Positions 20,586 to 30,681 of a stretch of 64,000 bases of DNA are shown piece by piece (the stretch's first letter is position 1; the number at the start of each line of letters is the position of its first letter). Origin of the DNA: Variovorax sp. S12S4 (GTDB lineage: Bacteria > Pseudomonadota > Gammaproteobacteria > Burkholderiales > Burkholderiaceae_C); contig NZ_JALPKR020000002.1 of NCBI RefSeq assembly GCF_023195515.1, positions 744,001 through 808,000 of the forward strand. Reading direction: 5' to 3'. The notes beneath the pieces were generated by a model. It had not been told where the DNA came from. It saw only the letters and a program-made list of their open reading frames with translations, and made no database searches. Both the position numbers and the translations under genes were made by a program.

Positions 20586-21608
20586 TCAGATCTCGAACTG
20601 CGGCTGCAGCTCGCGGATGCGTTTGATGGCCACGCCGGCAGCGGCGGTGCGGGTTTCGACGCCGAGCTTCACGTACACCCGCTCCAGGTGCTTCTTGGCC
20701 GTGGCAGGGCTGCTGCCGAGAATTTCGCCGATGTCCTTGTTGGTCTTGCCCTTCACCACCCAGTAAAGCACCTCGGCCTCGCGTGCCGTGAGCTTCAGGC
20801 TCAGGCTCATGGCCTCGATCACGCCCGTGTCCGAAATCTCGCGCATGACGATCATCCATTCGTCGCCATCGTCGTCCTGCCCGGTCTGCCGATGCAGGCG
20901 AAGGCTGAGACTGCTTGCGCTTGAGGTGGCCCCGGCGCTCTTCACGATGGAAAGCGCCGGCGGCTCGATGCCCCGCTCCCTCGCGTCGGGCGCATGGCGG
21001 CGTAGCCACTCGAGCACCTCGGGCGGTGTTTCGGGCGCGCGGGTGTCGCAATAGCGCTGCAGCAAGTCGCGCGCGAGCGCCGTCTGCCAGATCAGCCGGC
21101 CCTCGGGCAGCCGCACGGTAATGCTGGCATAGCCGAACGCATCGAGCGCATTGCGCGCCTGCCCGGCCTGGCGCGCGTCCTGCCGGGCGCGGCGGGCGCC
21201 CTGCAGATGCACGTTCATGCGCGCCAGCACTTCCTTGGGCTTGATCGGCTTGGTGACGTAGTCGACCCCGCCCGCTTCGAGCGCGGCCACCAGGTGCTCT
21301 GTTTCGGTGAGCCCGGTCATGAACACGATGGGAATGTGCGCCGTTGCGGCATCGGCCTTGAGCCGGCGCGCCACCTCGAAACCGTCGATGCCCGGCATCA
21401 TCGCGTCGAGCAGCACGATGTCGGGGCGGGCCTGCGCGGCGCGCTGCAGCGCCTGTTCGCCGTTGGTGGCAATGAGCACCGTGTAGCCGGATTCGTCCAG
21501 CGCGTCGTGCAGCACCGCGAGGTTGTCGGGCACGTCGTCGACGATCAGCACCAGGTCGCTGTTGGCGCCTTGGTCGCGCAACGTTTTCGCAAGCGGTGTG
21601 GTTTCCAT
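20586..21608 (-). CDS. Two-component response regulator, REC plus LuxR-type HTH
   Basis: 340 residues. The receiver domain covers about 18-135, with phospho-acceptor D68 in VLLDAMMPGIDGF and the acidic pocket VDDVPDN. A linker of about 130 residues has no clear motif. A LuxR/NarL HTH spans about 275-330 (LTAREAEVLYWVVKGKTNKD, then GSSPATAKKHLERVYVKL). It is a DNA-binding output regulator. The gene starts 23 bases after the NCS1-transporter/hybrid-kinase gene, so the two should form one signalling pair. The kinase has its own receiver, giving a phosphorelay His-Asp with a second Asp here. Targets may include the divergent urease operon, by position only. Confidence 0.92.
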   Translation of the reverse strand: METTPLAKTLRDQGANSDLVLIVDDVPDNLAVLHDALDESGYTVLIATNGEQALQRAAQARPDIVLLDAMMPGIDGFEVARRLKADAATAHIPIVFMTGLTETEHLVAALEAGGVDYVTKPIKPKEVLARMNVHLQGARRARQDARQAGQARNALDAFGYASITVRLPEGRLIWQTALARDLLQRYCDTRAPETPPEVLEWLRRHAPDARERGIEPPALSIVKSAGATSSASSLSLRLHRQTGQDDDGDEWMIVMREISDTGVIEAMSLSLKLTAREAEVLYWVVKGKTNKDIGEILGSSPATAKKHLERVYVKLGVETRTAAAGVAIKRIRELQPQFEI

Positions 21609-21631: not shown

Positions 21632-24600
21632 TCAGGCCGCACTCACGGCCGCGGCAAGCGCGCGGCCCATGGCCTCGAACTGGAACTGGCGGGCCAGCAC
21701 GCGCTGCGCCTCGGTCCATGCCCTGCATTCGGGCTCTTCGGCATCGATCTCGTCGAGCTGGTTCATGATGCCGCGAAAGTAGCCCAGGCTCACGGCTTCG
21801 TCGAGTGCGCGCAGCCTCGAAAGCGAAGGCGCCTGCACGGCGCGCGGCGCGGCGGCGGGCAACGGCTTCGCAGCCGTGTCCGTCCACTGCAGGCCGAGCC
21901 GCCGCTCGAGCCAGTCGAGCAGCTCCGTGTGCCGCACCGGCTTGACGAAGAAATCCTCGGGCGCGATGCCCACGTCGTTCTCCAGTCCCTTGTCGAAGGC
22001 ATTGGCCGAAACGATGGCCACCGGCGCATCGACCAGGCCCAGCTTGCGCGCACGGCGGATCGTCTCCCAGCCGTCGATGCCCGGCATGGCCAGGTCGACG
22101 AACATCGCGTCCGGCCGGTAGCCGGCTGCGATGAGGTCGAGCGCGTCGTGCCCGCTCGCGGCGGTGCGCAGGCCAAAGCCGAGCGGCGCCAGCACATGGC
22201 CGAGCAGGTCGCGGTCGGCCTCTTCGTTGTCGACCACCAGCAGTTGCCGCCGGCGCCCTTCGTAGCCGCGCCGCGCGCGTTGCGCCGGCGCAGCGCGGCC
22301 CAAGGCGCCTGCGGTCTCGTGCACGCGCGGCAGGAAGAGCCGCACGCAGAACAGCGAGCCCTCCCCGGGCGTGCTGCTCACCTTCATCTCGCCGCCCATC
22401 AGGTCGGTCAGCATCTTCGCGATGGTGAGGCCCAGCCCCGCACCGGGCGTTGCGGCCGCGGCCGCATCGCCGCGCGTGAAGGGCTCGAAGATGCGTTCGA
22501 TGTCTTCGGCCGTCATGCCCGGCCCGGTGTCTTCTATTTCGACCGAGGCGAACTCGCGTGCGTATGAAAGCCGCAGCGTCACCTCGCCCGCGGTGGTGAA
22601 CTTGATCGCGTTGCCCAGCAGGTTGATGAGGATCTGGCACACCCGCTTTTCGTCGGCGCGTACCACCTCGGGCAAGGTTCCCGCCGTCTCGAACCGGAAG
22701 CGCAGGCCCTTCTCGGCCGCCTGCAGTTCGAACATGTCGGCCAGCTCGCGCAGGGTGTCGGCAAAGCGCATCGGCCTGGCATGCAGCGTGAGCTTGCCGG
22801 CCTCGATGTGCGCAATGGCCAGCGTGCCTTCGATGAGCGACAGCAGATGCTCGCCGCCGCGCTTGATCACCGCCACCGCCTGCTGGCGGTGCGGCGGCAC
22901 CGATGCGTCTTCGCCCATGAGCTGCGCATAGCCAAGAATGCTGTTGAGGGGCGTGCGCAGCTCGTGGCTGATGGCGCTGATGTAGCGGCTCTTGGCCTGG
23001 TTGGCCTGGTCGGCGGCGCGGCGGGCCTCTTCGGCCGCGAGCTTGGCCTGCTCCGCGACTTCGCGCGCCTCTTCCGCAGTCTGCTTGGCCGACTGCAGCG
23101 CGCGGTCGGTGGCGCGGTGCAGCTCGATCTCGCGCATCAGCAAGTGCGTTTGGCGGTTCGATTCTTCCTGCGCCACCTTGCGGCTCTGGTGCGCCAATAC
23201 CAGCCACCAGGCCACGACGCCGGCAATGACCAGCAGCGCCATGTATGCCTTGAGAAAGCCGGAGCGCAACGACGACTGCTGCACGCCCGCCAGCGCTTCG
23301 GCGAGTTCCGACTGCGACGCGAGCTGCAGCGCGCTTTCGCCCAGCGCGCGCAGTTCCTGCTGGTAGAGCACGCCGAACACCACAGCCAGCACCGGCACGA
23401 TGATCAGCATCAGCAGCAGGAAGTGCCCCAGCCCCGTGTCGAGATAGCGCCAGCTGAGGCGCGGCAGCAGCCAGCGAAGCACCGACGACCACTGAGACGA
23501 AAGGCTCGCGTGCGGCTTGCACAGATCGCCGCAGCGCGCATCGAGCGTGCAGCACAGCGAGCAGATCGCCCCCTGGTAGGCCGGACAATGGGCCATGTCC
23601 GGGCCCTCGTATTCGCGCTCGCAGATCACGCAGTGCTGCACCTTGAGGCGCTGGTAGCTGCCATCGGCACCGCGCTCGTCCACATCGTTCTCGACGCGCG
23701 CCCAGCGAACCGCCCGCGGGCCCTCGGCCGGTGCAAAGGCGACCGCGCCATTGCCGACCGAACCGCGCGCCAGGTAGTACTTGCCGCCGGTCGCCCAGGC
23801 GATCAGCGGCGAAACCACCAGCGCCGTGCCAAGCGCAATGAGCGCCGAGAAAGCCTGCGCCAGCGGCCCGAAGACGCCGAGATGCGCGGTGATGGAAAGC
23901 AGCGAAGCCAGCGCCATCGCACCCACGCCCACGGGGTTGATGTCCCACAGGTGCGCCCGCTTGAACTCGATGCCCGGCGGCGACAGGCCCAGCGGCTTGT
24001 TGATGACCAGGTCGGCCACCACGGCCATCATCCAGGCGATGGCGATATTGGCGAACAGCCCGAGCACATCGCCCAGCGCCTCGAACACGTTCATCTCCAT
24101 CAGCATGAAGGCGATGAGCGCGTTGAACACCACCCAGACCACCCGCCCCGGGTGGCTGTGCGCCACGCGCGAGAAAAAATTGCTCCACGCCAGCGAGCCC
24201 GCGTAGGCGTTGGTCACGTTGATCTTGAGCTGAGAAATCACCACGAACAGCGCGGTCGCGGCCACGGCCCAGCCGTAGTTGGGAAACACGTACTCGTAGG
24301 CCGCCAGGTACATCTGGTTCGGATCGACCGCGCGCTCGACCGGCACCATGTGCGTGATGGCCAGGTAGGCCAACAGCGCGCCGCCCAGCATCTTGAGCAC
24401 CCCCAGCACCACCCAGCCCGGCCCGCCGGCCAGCACCCCCGCCCACCAGCGCCGGGCGCTCACGGCCGTGCGCGCGGGCATGAAGCGCAGGTAATCGGCC
24501 TGCTCCCCCATTTGGGTGATCAAGGCAATGCCGACAGTCAGCGCAGCGCCAAACAGGTGCAGATCGAATCCCTTCGCACCCGTTTTCACACCGTTGTAGT

Positions 24601-25273
24601 GCACGATGCCCGCGAATGCACCAGGATCGCGCGCCAGCACGAAGACGAACGGCACCACCAGCATCACCAGCCACAGCGGCTGGGTCCACAGCTGCAGCCG
24701 GCTGATGGCCGATACCCCGTGGGTGACCAGCGGAATCACCACCAGCGCACACACCAGGTAGCCCCAGACCGGCGGCACGCCGAGGGCGAGTTCGAGCGCA
24801 TAGGCCATCACCGCCGCCTCGAGCGCAAAGAAGATGAAGGTGAACGACGCGTAGATGAGCGAGGTGAGCGTGGAGCCGATATAGCCGAAGCCCGCGCCCC
24901 GCGTGAGCAGGTCCATGTCGACGCCGTAGCGGGCGGCATACACGCTGATCGGCAGGCCCGCCAGGAAGATGATGAGGCCCGTCACCACGATGGCCCAGAA
25001 CGCGTTGGCAAAGCCGTACTGCACCAGCAGCGTGGCGCCCACCGCCTCCAGGATGAGGAACGACGCCGCGCCGAAGGCCGTGTTGGCCACCCGCCATTCG
25101 GACCATTTGCGAAAGCGCTGCGGCGTGTAACGCAGCGCGTAGTCCTCGAGCGTTTCGCTCGCCACCCAGCTGTTGTAGTCGCGCCGCACCTTGACGATGC
25201 GCTGCGGCGCGTCGTCGGGGGTGGTGGAAGTCTCGGCGGGGCTCACACCGTTTCGGTGCAGCTTTCGTGCCAT
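21632..25273 (-). CDS. NCS1 nucleobase-type transporter fused to hybrid histidine kinase
   Basis: A 1213-residue protein. Residues about 60-500 form an NCS1 (cytosine/purine/allantoin permease) domain with about 12 membrane segments. A linker at 548-585 holds eight cysteines (HCVIC, HCP, ICSLCC, RCGDLC). Two further membrane segments flank a periplasmic loop (about 615-640 and 676-695), then a coiled coil (about 700-760), HisKA with H770 in [10 protein letters not shown], HATPase (about 870-980; [22 protein letters not shown]) and a receiver with D1060. The architecture parallels CbrA-type transporter-kinases, but with an NCS1 module. It probably senses a nitrogen compound such as urea, a purine or a hydantoin-like ligand. 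The next gene is its likely regulator, and urease genes are divergent. The ATG at 25273 is the last before conserved sequence. Confidence 0.93.
25244..25260. promoter_or_regulatory. Possible NtrC-binding site upstream of ureA
   Basis: CACACC-GTTTC-GGTGCA matches the NtrC consensus TGCACC-N5-GGTGCA in ten of twelve arm positions, with the right half perfect. It lies about 40 bases upstream of the sigma-54 promoter and inside the first codons of the divergent kinase gene. NtrC activates nitrogen-scavenging genes from such upstream sites. The close spacing to the promoter and one imperfect half-site limit confidence. Confidence 0.45.
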
Positions 25274-25295
25274 CCATACGTCTTTTGGCGAACAG

Positions 25296-25311
25296 CGGCA
25301 CGACTGTTGCA
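25296..25311 (+). promoter_or_regulatory. Sigma-54 promoter for the urease operon
   Basis: CGGCACG-ACTG-TTGCA differs from the sigma-54 consensus TGGCACG-N4-TTGCA at one base. The invariant GG (25297-25298) and GC (25309-25310) are ten bases apart. It points toward ureA, whose ATG lies 56 bases downstream, leaving a leader of about 45 bases. Sigma-54 with NtrC is a known means of nitrogen control of urease operons, for example in enteric bacteria. It is the strongest promoter match seen in the window. Confidence 0.75.
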
Positions 25312-25366: not shown

Positions 25367-25669
25367 ATGGAACTGACCCCGCGCGAAAAAGACAAGCTGC
25401 TGATCTTCACCGCAGCATTGCTGGCCGAACGCCGCAAGGCGCGGGGCCTGAAGCTCAACTACCCGGAAGCCGTCGCGCTGATTTCCGCCGCCGTAATGGA
25501 AGGCGCGCGCGACGGAAAGAGCGTCGCGGCGCTCATGAGCGAGGGCCGCACCGTGCTCACCCGCGCCGACGTGATGGACGGCATCGCCGAGATGATCCCG
25601 GACATCCAGGTGGAGGCCACTTTCCCGGACGGCACCAAGCTGGTCACCGTCCACCAACCCATCGTCTGA
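25367..25669 (+). CDS. ureA: Urease gamma subunit UreA
   Basis: A 100-residue structural subunit of the nickel urease (UreABC)3. It begins [20 protein letters not shown], the family signature, and ends VTVHQPIV as in most UreA proteins. It is the first gene of the urease cluster, downstream of a sigma-54-type promoter. The length is exact for free-standing UreA. In many relatives ureD precedes ureA; here the divergent transporter-kinase gene takes that place. Confidence 0.98.
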
Positions 25670-25697
25670 CTCTTTTCCAGAACAAGAAAGCCCTGTC

Positions 25698-26297
25698 ATG
25701 CGCCACAACGTTTCCAAGACCCTTGCCCTCATTGCGATGCTGCTGCCACTCGCGGCCAGCGCCCACACCGGCGCCGACGGCGGCGTGCACCACGGCTTTG
25801 CCACCGGTTTTCTGCACCCGCTGACCGGCGCCGACCACCTGGCAGCCATGGTGGCAGTCGGGCTTTGGAGTGCGTTGGCCGCACGCCGCGCCTGGCCCGA
25901 TCTGCTGTGGGCGCCACTGGCTTTCGCGGGCATGCTGCTGGCCGGCGCGCTGATGGGCCTGGCGGGCGTGCAGTTGCCGGCGGTCGAGCCGATGATCGCG
26001 GCCTCGCTGCTGGTGCTGGGCCTGCTGGTTGCAACGCGCACCCACCTGCCGGCCGCGGCAGCCGCGGCGGTGGTAGGCGTGTTCGCCATCTTCCACGGCG
26101 TGGCGCACGGGCACGAACTCGCGAGCGAGCAAGGCGCCGCGCTGACGCTGGCGGGCATGGTGGGCGCCACCGTGCTGCTGCACCTGGCGGGCATCGGGCT
26201 CGGCTGGGCACTGCGCCATGCCAATGCCTGGCTGCCGCGCGTGACAGGCGCCGCGGTGGTGGCGCTGGGCGCGACGCTGCTCTCGCAGGCCGTCTGA
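25698..26297 (+). CDS. ureJ: HupE/UreJ-family nickel permease
   Basis: A 199-residue membrane protein. A signal-like start ([20 protein letters not shown]) precedes the HupE/UreJ metal motif [18 protein letters not shown] (about residues 42-59), then about five further membrane segments with HGVAHGHEL near 135. The family imports nickel or cobalt across the inner membrane, here presumably to supply urease. It lies between ureA and ureB, an arrangement known in other betaproteobacterial urease operons. Gap to ureA is 28 bases. Confidence 0.93.
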
Positions 26298-26316
26298 TCA
26301 AAGGCGCCGCGACACC

Positions 26317-26622
26317 ATGATTCCCGGCGAACTTTTTACCGACGACGGCGAGCACACGCTCAACCCCGGCCGCCGCACACTCACGCTGGTGGTGCAGAAC
26401 ACCGCCGACCGGCCGATCCAGGTCGGTTCGCACTATCACTTTGCCGAGACCAACGGCGCGCTCGGCTTCGACCGCGAAGCCGCGCGCGGCATGCGGCTCA
26501 ACATTGCCTCTGGCGCGGCGGTGCGCTTCGAGCCGGGCCAGCAGCGCACCGTCGAGCTGGTCGATTTTTCGGGCGACCGCGTCGTCTACGGCTTTCGCGG
26601 CCTCGTTCAAGGAAAGCTCTAA
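26317..26622 (+). CDS. ureB: Urease beta subunit UreB
   Basis: A 101-residue structural subunit. The signatures [27 protein letters not shown] and [14 protein letters not shown] are intact, and the protein ends [15 protein letters not shown]. UreB forms the trimer interface with UreC. It starts 19 bases after ureJ and its stop precedes the ureC ATG by only 3 bases, so translation is probably coupled. Length is normal. Confidence 0.98.
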
Positions 26623-26625
26623 GCC

Positions 26626-28368
26626 ATGGCAACGATCGGAAGGCGTGCATACGCCGAGATATTCGGCCCGACCGTGGGCGACCGGGTTCGTCTTGCGGAC
26701 ACGGACCTGCTGATCGAGGTGGAAGCCGACTACACACTGCGCGCCGGCGGCTACGGTGAAGAAGTGAAGTTCGGCGGCGGCAAGACCATTCGCGACGGCA
26801 TGGCGCAGTCGCAGCGCACGCGCGACGGCAAGGGCAGCGGCCCCACGGCCGGCGGCGCCGTCGACACCGTGCTGACCAACGCGCTGATCCTCGACCACTG
26901 GGGCATCGTCAAGGCCGACATCGGCCTGAAGGGCGGCCGCATCGCCGCCATTGGCAAGGCCGGCAACCCCGACGTGCAACCGGGCGTGGACATCGTCATC
27001 GGCCCGGGCACTGAGATCATCAGCTGCGAAGGCAACATCGTCACCGCCGGCGGCATCGACAGCCACATTCACTTCATCTGCCCGCAGCAGATCGAGGAAG
27101 CACTCGCTTCCGGCGTGACCACCATGCTGGGCGGCGGCACCGGCCCGGCCACCGGCACTTTCGCGACCACCGCCACCCCCGGTCCCTGGCACATCGAGCG
27201 CATGCTGCAGGCGGCCGATGCGTTTCCGATGAACCTGGGCTTCCTGGGCAAGGGCAACGCCAGCCTGCCCGATGCGCTGCACGAGCAGATCGAAGCCGGC
27301 GTCATAGGCCTGAAGCTCCACGAAGACTGGGGCACCACGCCCTCGGCCATCAGCAACTGCCTGGACGTGGCCGACGCCACCGACACGCAGGTGGCGATCC
27401 ACAGCGACACGCTCAACGAGTCGGGCTTTGTCGAAAACACCATTGCCGCTGTGGGCGGCCGCTCGATCTGCGCCTTTCATACCGAAGGCGCGGGCGGCGG
27501 GCATGCGCCGGACATCCTGCGCGTGGTGGGCGAGGAGAACTTCCTCCCCTCCTCCACCAACCCGACCATGCCCTACACCGTGAACACGCTCGACGAACAC
27601 GTCGACATGCTCATGGTGTGCCACCACCTGGACGCCGGCATTGCCGAGGACCTGGCCTTTGCCGAGTCGCGCATCCGCAAGGAAACCATTGCCGCCGAAG
27701 ACGTGCTGCACGACCTGGGCGCCATCAGCATGTTCAGTTCCGACAGCCAGGCCATGGGCCGCGTCGGCGAGGTGGTGCTGCGCTGCTGGCAGACGGCGCA
27801 CAAGATGAAGCTGCAGCGCGGCAAGCTGCCGGAAGACAACGAGCGCAACGACAACTTCCGCGCCAAGCGCTACGTGGCCAAGTACACGATCAACCCTGCC
27901 ATTGCGCACGGCATCGCGCACGAGGTGGGCTCGCTCGAAGTGGGCAAGTGGGCCGACATCGTCATCTGGAAGCCCGCCTTCTTCGGCGTGAAGCCCTTCA
28001 CCCTCATCAAGGGCGGCACCATTGCGATGGCAGCCATGGGCGACCCCAACGCGTCCATTCCCACGCCGCAGCCGGTGCACTACCGTCCGATGTTCGGCAG
28101 CTACGGCGGCTCGCTCGCCAAAAGCTCGCTGACCTTCGTTTCGCAGGCCGGGCTGGCCGCAGGCATCAAGGAACGCTACGGCCTTGCCAAGCATCTCAGC
28201 CCGGTAAAAAACATCCGCGACGTGCGCAAGAAGGACCTGATCCACAACAGCTACGCGCCGAAGATGGAAATCGACGCGCAGACCTATGCCGTGCGCGCCG
28301 ACGGGCACTTGCTGACCTGCGACCCGGCGGTGCAACTGCCTCTGACGCAGCGCTACTTCCTGTTCTGA
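26626..28368 (+). CDS. ureC: Urease alpha (catalytic) subunit UreC
   Basis: A 580-residue amidohydrolase-fold subunit that hydrolyses urea to ammonia and carbamate at a di-nickel site. Metal ligands are H147 and H149 (SHIHF), the carbamylated lysine K230 (GLKLHEDW), and later histidines in VAIHSD and CAFHTEGAG. The mobile-flap cysteine and catalytic histidine are C332 and H333 (MVCHHLDAG). All active-site residues are present. The length is slightly over the usual 567-573. It reads straight on from ureB. The enzyme needs UreDEFG for nickel insertion. Confidence 0.98.
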
Positions 28369-28477
28369 GCGGAGCGCTCAGGGTCTTGCACAAGAGGCCC
28401 GGCGCCCGCTTGACAGGCTGCGTATCCTCAAGGGTATCCATCCTGTCGTTTCACGCCTTTGGCGTTCCATTCGCACC

Positions 28478-29044
28478 ATGCTCACCGCCAACAAACTCAT
28501 GCCCCAGGGCCGCGGCCTTGCGCCCGTGCTGCTGAAGCGCGCCGCCACCATCGAACTCGACTGGGACGTGCGCCAGAAAAGCCGTTTCGACGCCACCGAT
28601 TCGCTGGGCCGGCAGATCGGCGTGTTCCTGCCGCGCGGCACGGCGGTGCGCGGCGGCGATGTGCTGGTGGCCGAAGACGGCTCGCTGCTCCGCGTGATCG
28701 CCGCGCCGCAGCCGGTGCTGCGCATCACGCATTGCACGGCTCACGGCACTCCGTTCGACCTGACGCGCGCGGCCTATCACCTGGGCAACCGGCATGTGCC
28801 CATCGAGCTCAAGCCCGACCACCTGAAGATCGAGCCCGACCATGTGCTCGCCGACATGCTGCGATCGATGCACCTCATCGTCGTCGCGGTCGAGGAAGCG
28901 TTCGAACCGGAGGGCGGCGCCTATGGGTCGCATGAGCATTCGCATGGTGGTGCCCATGACCATTCGCATGATCATGGTCATTCGCATTCCAAGGGTCCGA
29001 AGCCGCTGGTGCTTGCACCTGAGCTGCTCGATGACCATGGCTGA
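28478..29044 (+). CDS. ureE: Urease accessory nickel-donor protein UreE
   Basis: 188 residues: an N-terminal UreE domain (about 1-70; FLPRGTAVRGGDVL), a metal-binding C-terminal domain (about 75-150; LADMLRSMHLIVV), and a histidine-rich tail from about 152 with eleven His among Ser, Gly and Asp residues. UreE delivers nickel to the UreDFG-apourease complex. His-rich tails store extra nickel in several bacteria. A 109-base gap follows ureC; a repeat element lies between this gene and ureF. Confidence 0.95.
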   Translation: MLTANKLMPQGRGLAPVLLKRAATIELDWDVRQKSRFDATDSLGRQIGVFLPRGTAVRGGDVLVAEDGSLLRVIAAPQPVLRITHCTAHGTPFDLTRAAYHLGNRHVPIELKPDHLKIEPDHVLADMLRSMHLIVVAVEEAFEPEGGAYGSHEHSHGGAHDHSHDHGHSHSKGPKPLVLAPELLDDHG

Positions 29045-29065
29045 TTCGGGGCGCGCACCCGCCGA

Positions 29066-29284
29066 CGGGGTACCTTTCTCCGCGAATGTCCCCCGGCCTA
29101 CGGCCTCCTCCTTTATTTCGCTGCGCAAGGCACCCCATCGACGTGTGCGTGATGAACGGCGGTCGTTGATCGGCTGCTCACCAGCAGCGCGTCCATGTGC
29201 ACAGGCCATCGGGTACTCCCCGCAGCGAAATAAAGGAGGAGCCGAAGGCGGGGGACATTCGCGGAGGGGGAGTACCCGATGGCC
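29066..29284. repeat. Large inverted-repeat element between ureE and ureF
   Basis: The arms 29066-29125 and 29221-29278 are inverted copies of about 58-60 bases with a few mismatches; both contain the core CGCGAATGTCCCCC and TCCTCCTTTATTTCGCTGCG in complementary form. A second perfect pair of 17 bases, GGCCATCGGGTACTCCC (29204-29220) and its complement (29268-29284), frames the right arm. The loop of 95 bases codes for nothing recognisable. It looks like a miniature mobile or REP-like element, or a transcription-attenuating hairpin inserted in the operon. No transposase is present. Confidence 0.8.
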
Positions 29285-29341
29285 TTTGCACTCGCCCTGA
29301 ACAGCGGCGCGCCACCAAGCAGCGCCAAACGAACAGCTGAC

Positions 29342-30012
29342 ATGCCCGACGCACAAAGCCTCCTGCAGCTCATCTGGCTAGCATCCCCGGCCCTCCCCGT
29401 GGGCGGCTTCTCCTATTCCGAGGGTGTCGAAGCAGCCGTCGAATGGGCTGGCATCGATTCGGAAGTCAAAGCCATCGAGTGGCTCTCCGACCAGCTCTAC
29501 CTGAGCTTCGCGCGCGGCGACCTTGCACTCGTGGCCCAAGCCATACCCGCCTGGCGCGGAGGCGATGCAGCACGCATCCGCCAACTCAACGAGTGGGTCA
29601 TGACCACCCGCGAATCGGCCGAGTTCTTTTTGCAGACTGAGCAGATGGGCCGCTCCTTCGTCGAATGGCTCAAGCTGCACCACGACGACACCGCCGCCGT
29701 TTTTTCCGACCTGCCCGCGAGCTACCCCGTCGCGTTTGCCTTTGCCGCAAGCCGAACCGGAGCTTCGGTGCACGACGGCTGCCTTGCGTTCGCCTTCGGC
29801 TGGGCCGAAAACATGGTCGCCGCGGCGGTCAAGGCCGTGCCGCTTGGCCAGAGCGCGGGCCAGCGCATTCTTGCGCGGCTTGCGAGCGAAATTCCCACCG
29901 CCGTCGAACGTGCCATGCAGCTCGGCGACCACGAACGCCAAGCCTTTGCCCCCTTTTGGCCGTGTTGTCGGCACGCCATGAAACACAATACTCGCGCCTC
30001 TTCAGAAGCTGA
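29342..30012 (+). pseudogene. ureF: Urease accessory protein UreF, one-base deletion near the C-terminus
   Basis: UreF works with UreD and UreG to activate urease. From ATG 29342 the frame carries [17 protein letters not shown] and the family core up to DHERQAFAP. At the C run 29949-29953 one base appears lost. The proper C-terminus [19 protein letters not shown] lies in the next frame and ends at the TGA 30010-30012; as read, the protein instead continues to a stop at 30034, overlapping ureG. The conserved UreF C-terminal tail contacts UreG, so the change would matter if real. The position in a C homopolymer suggests a sequence error. Restored length is 223 residues. Confidence 0.88.
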
Positions 30013-30030
30013 CCGAACCGGACCTTTGCC

Positions 30031-30681
30031 ATGACCTCCGCCCTGCACCACATTCCCCATCGCACCAAGAAACTGCCGCCGCTGCGCGTGGGCATCGGCG
30101 GCCCGGTCGGCTCGGGCAAGACCACCCTGCTTGAAATGCTTTGCAAGGCGATGCGCGACAAGTACGACCTGGTCGCCATCACCAACGACATCTACACCAA
30201 GGAAGACCAGCGCCTGCTCACCGTGTCCGGCGCCCTGCCCGCCGAGCGCATCATGGGCGTGGAAACCGGCGGCTGCCCGCACACCGCCATCCGAGAAGAC
30301 GCCTCCATCAACCTCGAGGCCATCGACCGCATGCTCGAGGACTTTCCCGATGCCGACGTGGTGTTCGTCGAATCGGGCGGCGACAACCTCGCAGCCACCT
30401 TCAGCCCCGAACTGTCGGACCTGACCATCTACGTGATCGACGTGGCGGCCGGCGAAAAGATTCCGCGCAAGGGCGGCCCCGGCATCACCAAGAGCGATTT
30501 GTTCGTCATCAACAAGACCGACCTGGCGCCGTACGTGGGCGCGAACCTCGACGTGATGGAGCAGGACACGCAGCGCATGCGCCGCCAGCGGCCCTACGTG
30601 ATGACCAACCTCAAGACGCATACCGGCGTGGCCGAAGTGGTCGCCTTCATCGAGAAGCGCGGCATGCTCACAGCCGCCTGA
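30031..30681 (+). CDS. ureG: Urease accessory GTPase UreG
   Basis: A 216-residue SIMIBI GTPase that couples GTP hydrolysis to nickel insertion into urease. P-loop [13 protein letters not shown] at about residues 27-39, [10 protein letters not shown] and the nickel-site [11 protein letters not shown] (Cys-Pro-His) at about 84-94 are intact, as is [10 protein letters not shown] for guanine recognition. The start lies 18 bases after the restored ureF stop. It is the last gene of the urease cluster; no ureD follows. Confidence 0.97.

Follow-up and report, generated by a model that had tools for sequence, protein, structure and literature searches.

We describe a sensor kinase with a transporter-like N-terminal part, encoded in a 64,000-nucleotide stretch of the genome of Variovorax sp. 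S12S4 that is referred to here as the window. The kinase, P0001, is read from a single frame without an internal stop (G000:C2:765635-769273 in the genome), is followed by the gene of its likely cognate response regulator and is divergent from a urease cluster, whose ureA begins 93 bases away on the opposite strand (Table 1). The ureA, B, C, E and G genes were named by NCBIfam and UreJ and UreF by Pfam; the genome's one UreD match lies about 280 kb from this cluster, at G000:C2:484219-484824.

Table 1. Features of the kinase-urease locus, with positions in the window.
Feature	Position	Strand	Evidence
Hybrid sensor kinase P0001, NCS1-Cys8-HisKA-HATPase-REC, 1213 aa	21632..25273	-	
NCS1-fold transporter-like part, about residues 30-503	23765..25186	-	AF2 model; Foldseek/VIA; hhalign
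Eight-cysteine module, residues 548-585	23519..23632	-	alignments
Extra hydrophobic segment, residues 618-636	23366..23422	-	helix in AF2 model
Extra hydrophobic segment, residues 676-694	23192..23248	-	helix in AF2 model
HisKA, residues 760-826, SHELRTP box at 769	22796..22996	-	Pfam
HATPase_c, residues 874-981	22331..22654	-	Pfam
Receiver domain, residues 1012-1121, FVDLAMP at 1058	21911..22240	-	Pfam
Likely cognate response regulator, REC + LuxR-type HTH, 340 aa as called, helix SPATAKKH	20586..21608	-	Pfam, adjacency
Sigma-54-type element for the kinase gene, TGGCACGAAAGCTGCA, overlapping the nominal ATG	25257..25272	-	
Imperfect TACG-N8-CGTA dyad, 7 of 8 fixed bases	25277..25292	.	ureA-kinase gap
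Sigma-54-type element for ureA, CGGCACGACTGTTGCA	25296..25311	+	
Urease cluster ureA, ureJ/hupE, ureB, ureC, ureE, ureF, ureG, divergent from the kinase	25367..30681	+	NCBIfam, Pfam

The C-terminal part of P0001 is that of a hybrid histidine kinase, with an H-box in HisKA, an HATPase_c domain and a terminal receiver that carries its aspartate; Pfam recognises these three domains (the last as Response_reg) and returns no match for the N-terminal part. The regulator, with REC (PF00072) and GerE HTH (PF00196) domains, is of the NarL/LuxR type. In the N-terminal part the AF2 model and Foldseek/VIA reveal the NCS1 version of the LeuT fold, and no SSS/SLC5 domain is present. The NCS1 transporters Mhp1 and CodB have this fold in common with the kinase over about 400 residues, but at only 13-17% identity, and P0001 differs from both in being fused to a kinase, in lying out of reach of the Pfam model and in the replacement of the Na2 hydroxyl ligands. 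An NCS1 assignment through Pfam fails: in scans of the window protein and its relatives the family profile (PF02133) does not match the kinase N-terminal parts, though it does match a free-standing relative (in locus L157), and the fold and profile evidence from AF2, Foldseek and hhalign is used in its place. Against PDB sequences the N-terminal profile gave chance matches only, and the free-standing relative a single match, to an unrelated synthetase (E 0.0099).

W117 and Q121 of Mhp1 belong to its hydantoin site, and S312 and T313 are its Na2 hydroxyl ligands. The former pair aligns with F148 and the near-invariant E152 of the kinase and the pocket therefore differs from that of Mhp1; the latter pair aligns with K350 and I351, of which K350 is kept in 13/13 and 61/61 sequences. 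The NCS1-Cys part as a whole averages 69% column identity (alignment A2), compared with 50% over the full-length alignment (A1).

Between the transporter-like part and the kinase core lies a stretch that the initial annotation treated as an eight-cysteine linker. The cysteines are indeed there, and all eight are kept in 13/13 full-length relatives (40-81% identity) and 61/61 nearer relatives, which makes of this stretch a conserved module rather than a mere linker. Its profile, used alone over 398 genomes, gives 58 strong matches in 52 genomes and one further marginal match (21 residues, E 9e-4), and the 58 places are, matched by genome and copy number, the 58 long fused NCS1 frames described below; the free-standing NCS1 relative has no such module. 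Being both kept and restricted to fused frames, the module therefore behaves, as far as sequence can tell, as an obligate coupling module of the receptor, sitting where STAC sits in CbrA. Pfam, which may not hold a STAC model, gives no match here, and a comparison with PDB sequences found no relative (best E 0.81 and 0.56). Modelled alone, the module reaches a pLDDT of 71.5 and a pTM of 0.49, with a likewise only moderate pLDDT in the AF2 model; Foldseek matches to the lone model have E values of at least 0.17 throughout, and many are RING, FYVE or PHD zinc fingers, a likeness that hints weakly at zinc. The module probably binds metal.

Fusions of transporters to kinases are known for the SLC5 family (CbrA, CrbS, RpuS and PrlS; PMC13022988, PMC7918813, PMC9100948) and for Amt (Ks-Amt5; PMC5764959), and a 2026 preprint (PMC13022988) counts CbrA among the rare transporter-kinase 'transceptors'. 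Like P0001, CbrA, CrbS/MxtR and RpuS have an N-terminal LeuT-fold transporter domain, a linker domain and HisKA-HATPase; CrbS and RpuS have a REC domain too, and the LuxR-type regulators CrbR and RpuR. They differ in carrying an SSS domain, where P0001 has NCS1, and STAC and PAS, where P0001 has the eight-cysteine module, and the P0001 family, unlike the SLC5/STAC kinases, is linked to urea and amide genes. Ks-Amt5, as far as the accessible text describes it, is likewise an uptake transporter recast as a nitrogen-compound receptor and fused to a histidine kinase, but is an Amt trimer without a linker domain such as PAS, HAMP or STAC and ends in DHp and CA. A literature search, with most subscription journals outside its scope, found no description of an NCS1-kinase fusion. 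Table 4 of PMC2907700 lists, beside urt/ure genes of Dechloromonas aromatica, a 'histidine kinase' (1131 aa) and a 'Che-Y like receiver' (VIMSS583663/583664); the accessible portion of that paper mentions no transporter domain in this kinase, which by its listed size and place is probably a member of the family.

The fused frame is widespread. In a sample of 398 Pseudomonadota genomes (338 of them good), the NCS1 profile matches 53 (52 of the good ones) with 60 matches in all, and 58 of these lie in frames of at least 894 residues, the other two being the free-standing relative and a 94-residue frame. Homologues are also listed in databases, and Variovorax accounts for most of the named ones among the 120 listed. 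A local fusion artefact, with transporter and kinase encoded separately in relatives, which the initial annotation had named as the outcome that would undo its reading, is rejected on these counts; its claims that an NCS1-type part and a hybrid kinase share one frame, and that the plan is CbrA-like, with transporter-fold part, linker and kinase in that order, are borne out by the domains, the AF2 fold and the fused relatives. In two loci (L043:6818-10833 and L164:6845-10655) the kinase end attached to the NCS1-Cys sensor has no REC and the neighbouring gene encodes a REC-EAL or a REC-kinase protein, respectively, which we read, from sequence, as an exchange of the kinase output with the sensor unchanged. 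The kinase of L175 is similar in its short length (883 aa). A formamidase homologue lies near the kinase in all three, that of L043 falling below the 55% threshold of the context count below and being detected in a separate neighbourhood comparison.

The search for this architecture and its neighbours that the initial annotation had called for thus gives a recurrent protein with urea and amide genes nearby. Regions were fetched for 40 of the 60 matches (the other 20 were left out, a few of them being present in another sample), and L196, which failed the N-terminal criterion, was omitted from the count. On L033 and L035, NCBIfam models scoring above cut-off supplied the names UrtA, B, C, D, E, FmdA and AmiE, and genes of other loci were named by their similarity to these. 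Every one of the 38 kinase copies that passed the criterion has at least one of urease, urt, fmdA and amiE within range (urt at 36, fmdA at 28, amiE at 14, urease at 6), and 32 are divergent from urtA. A further 80 named-genome loci were chosen as the nearest relatives of the window protein, and are therefore biased to Comamonadaceae and their kin; of the 81 copies here, 58 form a direct divergent pair with ureA and 66 are accompanied by one of the gene sets, as are 50 of the 58 whose flanks are ample. The remaining eight well-flanked copies, without any of urease, urt, fmdA and amiE in range, belong to Zoogloea (three) and, one each, to Denitromonas, Cognatazoarcus, Curvibacter, a Rhodocyclaceae and a gammaproteobacterial MAG. 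In the Zoogloea-type cluster L101:7024-13357, and similarly in L104 and L106, the kinase follows a gene pair and no urea genes are in range; the second member of the pair, scanned in L101 only, is NtrC-like.

At the level of whole genomes, UrtA (E<=1e-100) accompanies the NCS1 part in 52 of 53 cases and is found in 117 of the 345 genomes that lack this part (Fisher 8e-21). The genome of the window itself holds a second kinase-regulator pair (L033, C2:5375.6 kb), divergent from urtABCDE-fmdA. The regulator family is present in 87 of 94 loci and, in those whose gene order was compared, lies directly downstream of the kinase except in L091 (seven genes away); five phylum-sample copies were scored as lacking a regulator, which is nonetheless seen in three of them (L181, L182 and L194).

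Two facing heptamers with a spacing of 2 form the dyad to which NarL/LuxR-type regulators bind. An inverted-repeat search without a preset pattern returned TACGTC-N4-GACGTA in 17 of 35 kinase-urtA gaps and, more weakly, TACGCC-N4-GGCGTA in 7 of 57 ureA-kinase gaps when one mismatch was allowed. The core TACG-N8-CGTA is exact in 26/34 kinase-urtA gaps and within one mismatch in 31/34, the 1228-base gap of L171 being left out, while 200 shuffles of these gaps give means of 0.135 and 3.0 and maxima of 2 and 9. Of 36 further loci, most of them with urtA at another place such as downstream of the regulator, 34 have an exact core at most 500 bases upstream of urtA; the upstream regions of L120 and L185 have none. 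The whole 2.53 Mb of loci contains 81 exact cores, and shuffled versions of it 10-15.

The dyad goes with the kinase. In none of 59 kinase-less genomes is it exact upstream of urtA, and 4 have it when one mismatch is tolerated, where shuffling gives a mean of 7.65; the 59 come from 117 genomes that have UrtA but no kinase, 19 being among 30 kept loci and 40 hand-picked down the list. For 11 kinase-bearing genomes the best urtA copy has the exact core in six and lacks it in five; in four of the five (L181, L182, L184, L194) the kinase-adjacent urtA has the dyad, and the fifth is outside the fetched regions. Furthermore, the variable residue of the regulator helix SPxTVxKH covaries with base 5 of the half-site, N occurring with T in 15 of 19 cases, leaving four N-helix regulators not so paired, and T accompanying a residue other than N in 2 of 38 (relatedness uncorrected; L066, with two kinase copies, was omitted, as were L183 and L191, whose helix does not match the pattern and which both have N with T). 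The two pairs in the genome of the window follow suit: RR1 (helix SPATAKKH, urtA1 site TACGCCACCCGGCGTA) and RR2 (SPRTVNKH, urtA2 site TACGTTGAATGACGTA) carry K and N, and their sites C and T. TACGCC-N4-GGCGTA has a single exact site in this genome (C2:544854-544869), about 92 bases before the called urtA1 start and about 220 kb from the kinase gene, and nine sites with one mismatch; read backwards, the pattern gives 82. Dyads of the facing-heptamer geometry are thus conserved where expected and covary with the regulator helix, and short of experiment the covariation and the paired sites appear to tie regulator to operator.

The initial annotation's assignment of the output to the adjacent LuxR-type regulator is supported, but the best-supported target is not urease; it is urtABCDE, the urea importer, which the regulator probably controls. 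Direct control of urease through the dyad was considered and rejected: none of 58 ureA-kinase gaps (57 loci and the window) has an exact core, 13 have one within a mismatch (shuffles mean 1.4, largest 5) and 45 have none even so. With 7 of 8 bases in the window's own gap, such control is weakly indicated and appears doubtful.

Sigma-54-type elements scoring at least 13 of 16.1 occur in the same 58 gaps, 43 of which have one directed at ureA and 32 one directed at the kinase; shuffles that preserve base content only give 1.6%. In the 35 kinase-urtA gaps the element points toward the kinase in 16 (score at least 13; shuffled 3.7%), and those toward urtA are not above shuffles (1/35 at this score vs 3.7%). 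Counted over the window by itself, one-mismatch copies of the pattern number two, no more than chance would give (2.78 expected), and the putative assignment there is based on position and conservation. The conserved element also covers the nominal start codon of the kinase (window:25257-25273), and database relatives begin at differing codons.

From the architecture, predicted fold, conservation, gene context and the dyad with its link to kinase presence, all read from the sequences, we propose with a probability of roughly 0.6 that P0001 is a transporter-derived receptor kinase for urea and/or short amides, whose regulator acts on urtABCDE. The gene company of the free-standing NCS1 relative in L157, a CN_hydrolase and Peripla_BP_5 and AmiR/ANTAR proteins, speaks for the same reading. 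The ligand, the direction of signalling, the phosphorelay, activation rather than repression and DNA binding are what we infer in the following scheme. Because the kinase-regulator genes and ureA carry sigma-54-type elements, nitrogen limitation, through NtrC-type control, would set the level of sensor and urease, raising kinase, regulator and urease via sigma-54. Urea or a short amide would bind the NCS1-fold pocket, and occupancy, perhaps with some transport, would alter its conformation; the cysteine module, probably metal-binding, and the two extra hydrophobic helices would relay the signal to the HisKA/HATPase core. Phosphate would pass to the built-in receiver and on to the neighbouring REC-LuxR regulator, which would bind TACG-N8-CGTA upstream of urtABCDE and activate uptake of urea or amides, together with fmdA and amiE where these lie downstream in the same run. 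The sensor would in this manner add a specific 'substrate present' signal at the importer. Such a mechanism would mirror the regulation of a separate pyruvate symporter, MctP, by RpuS/R, an SLC5/STAC kinase and LuxR-type regulator (PMC9100948). For the wider statement, that a widespread unnamed family combines the NCS1 fold and the obligate eight-cysteine metal module into a urea/short-amide sensor, exchanging its kinase output (mostly with REC-LuxR as partner, but beside a REC-EAL or REC-kinase gene in L043/L164), keeping its amide context and having in the operator the definition of a urea-import regulon, we put the chances at about even.

The nitrogen-compound role suggested in the initial annotation is supported, but the context (urt, fmdA, amiE) points to urea and short amides rather than to purines or hydantoin. 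Other NCS1 proteins carry allantoin, hydantoin and uracil, and urease is the end of purine breakdown, so that a kinase with this fold could sense such an intermediate upstream of urea and induce the urea pathway in advance; we hold this to be distinctly improbable, as urt, fmdA and amiE are what recurs among the neighbours that were named (many were left unnamed, purine genes being outside the scan), fmdA far outnumbers urease in the phylum sample and the hydantoin-site positions are changed. It is also improbable, if somewhat less so, that the transporter part is an anchor, with the kinase responding to a nitrogen, redox or metal signal from inside the cell, for instance through the cysteine module: eight cysteines could sense metal or redox, and urease requires nickel, but the stronger conservation of the NCS1-Cys part and its retention with differing kinase ends beside a formamidase homologue speak for a sensory role of that part. 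CbrA without its SSS part is still able to signal (PMC7918813), which favours the anchor.

A working urea or amide symporter whose kinase reports flux, a true transceptor, would explain why the transporter core is kept in the AF2 model, and histidine transport is reported for the SSS domain of CbrA (PMC7918813 and PMC13022988). We consider this unlikely, as a lysine kept throughout stands at a Na2 ligand position of Mhp1, an ABC importer is usually nearby and Ks-Amt5 is reported to have lost transport on becoming a sensor (PMC5764959). Should the receptor reading hold, NCS1 would be the third transporter family among transporter-kinases, after SLC5 and Amt, present in 53 of the 398 sampled genomes, and P0001 a candidate dedicated urea/amide sensor, of a little-known kind, with a new coupling module to compare with STAC; the concrete candidate operator allows a quick reporter test of the idea.

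Three minor observations may be added. An Rfam match to RF02514 (5' ureB sRNA; window:26817-27100, minus strand, 103 bits) is antisense to ureC and may merely reflect conserved urease coding sequence. A simple gene caller finds few plausible genes at window:47800-56300, perhaps a decayed or foreign region. Finally, the free-standing NCS1 protein, a possible amide/nitrile transporter, lies in one run (L157:6949-11984) with a CN_hydrolase, an AmiR/ANTAR protein and a Peripla_BP_5 protein that we read as AmiC-like.
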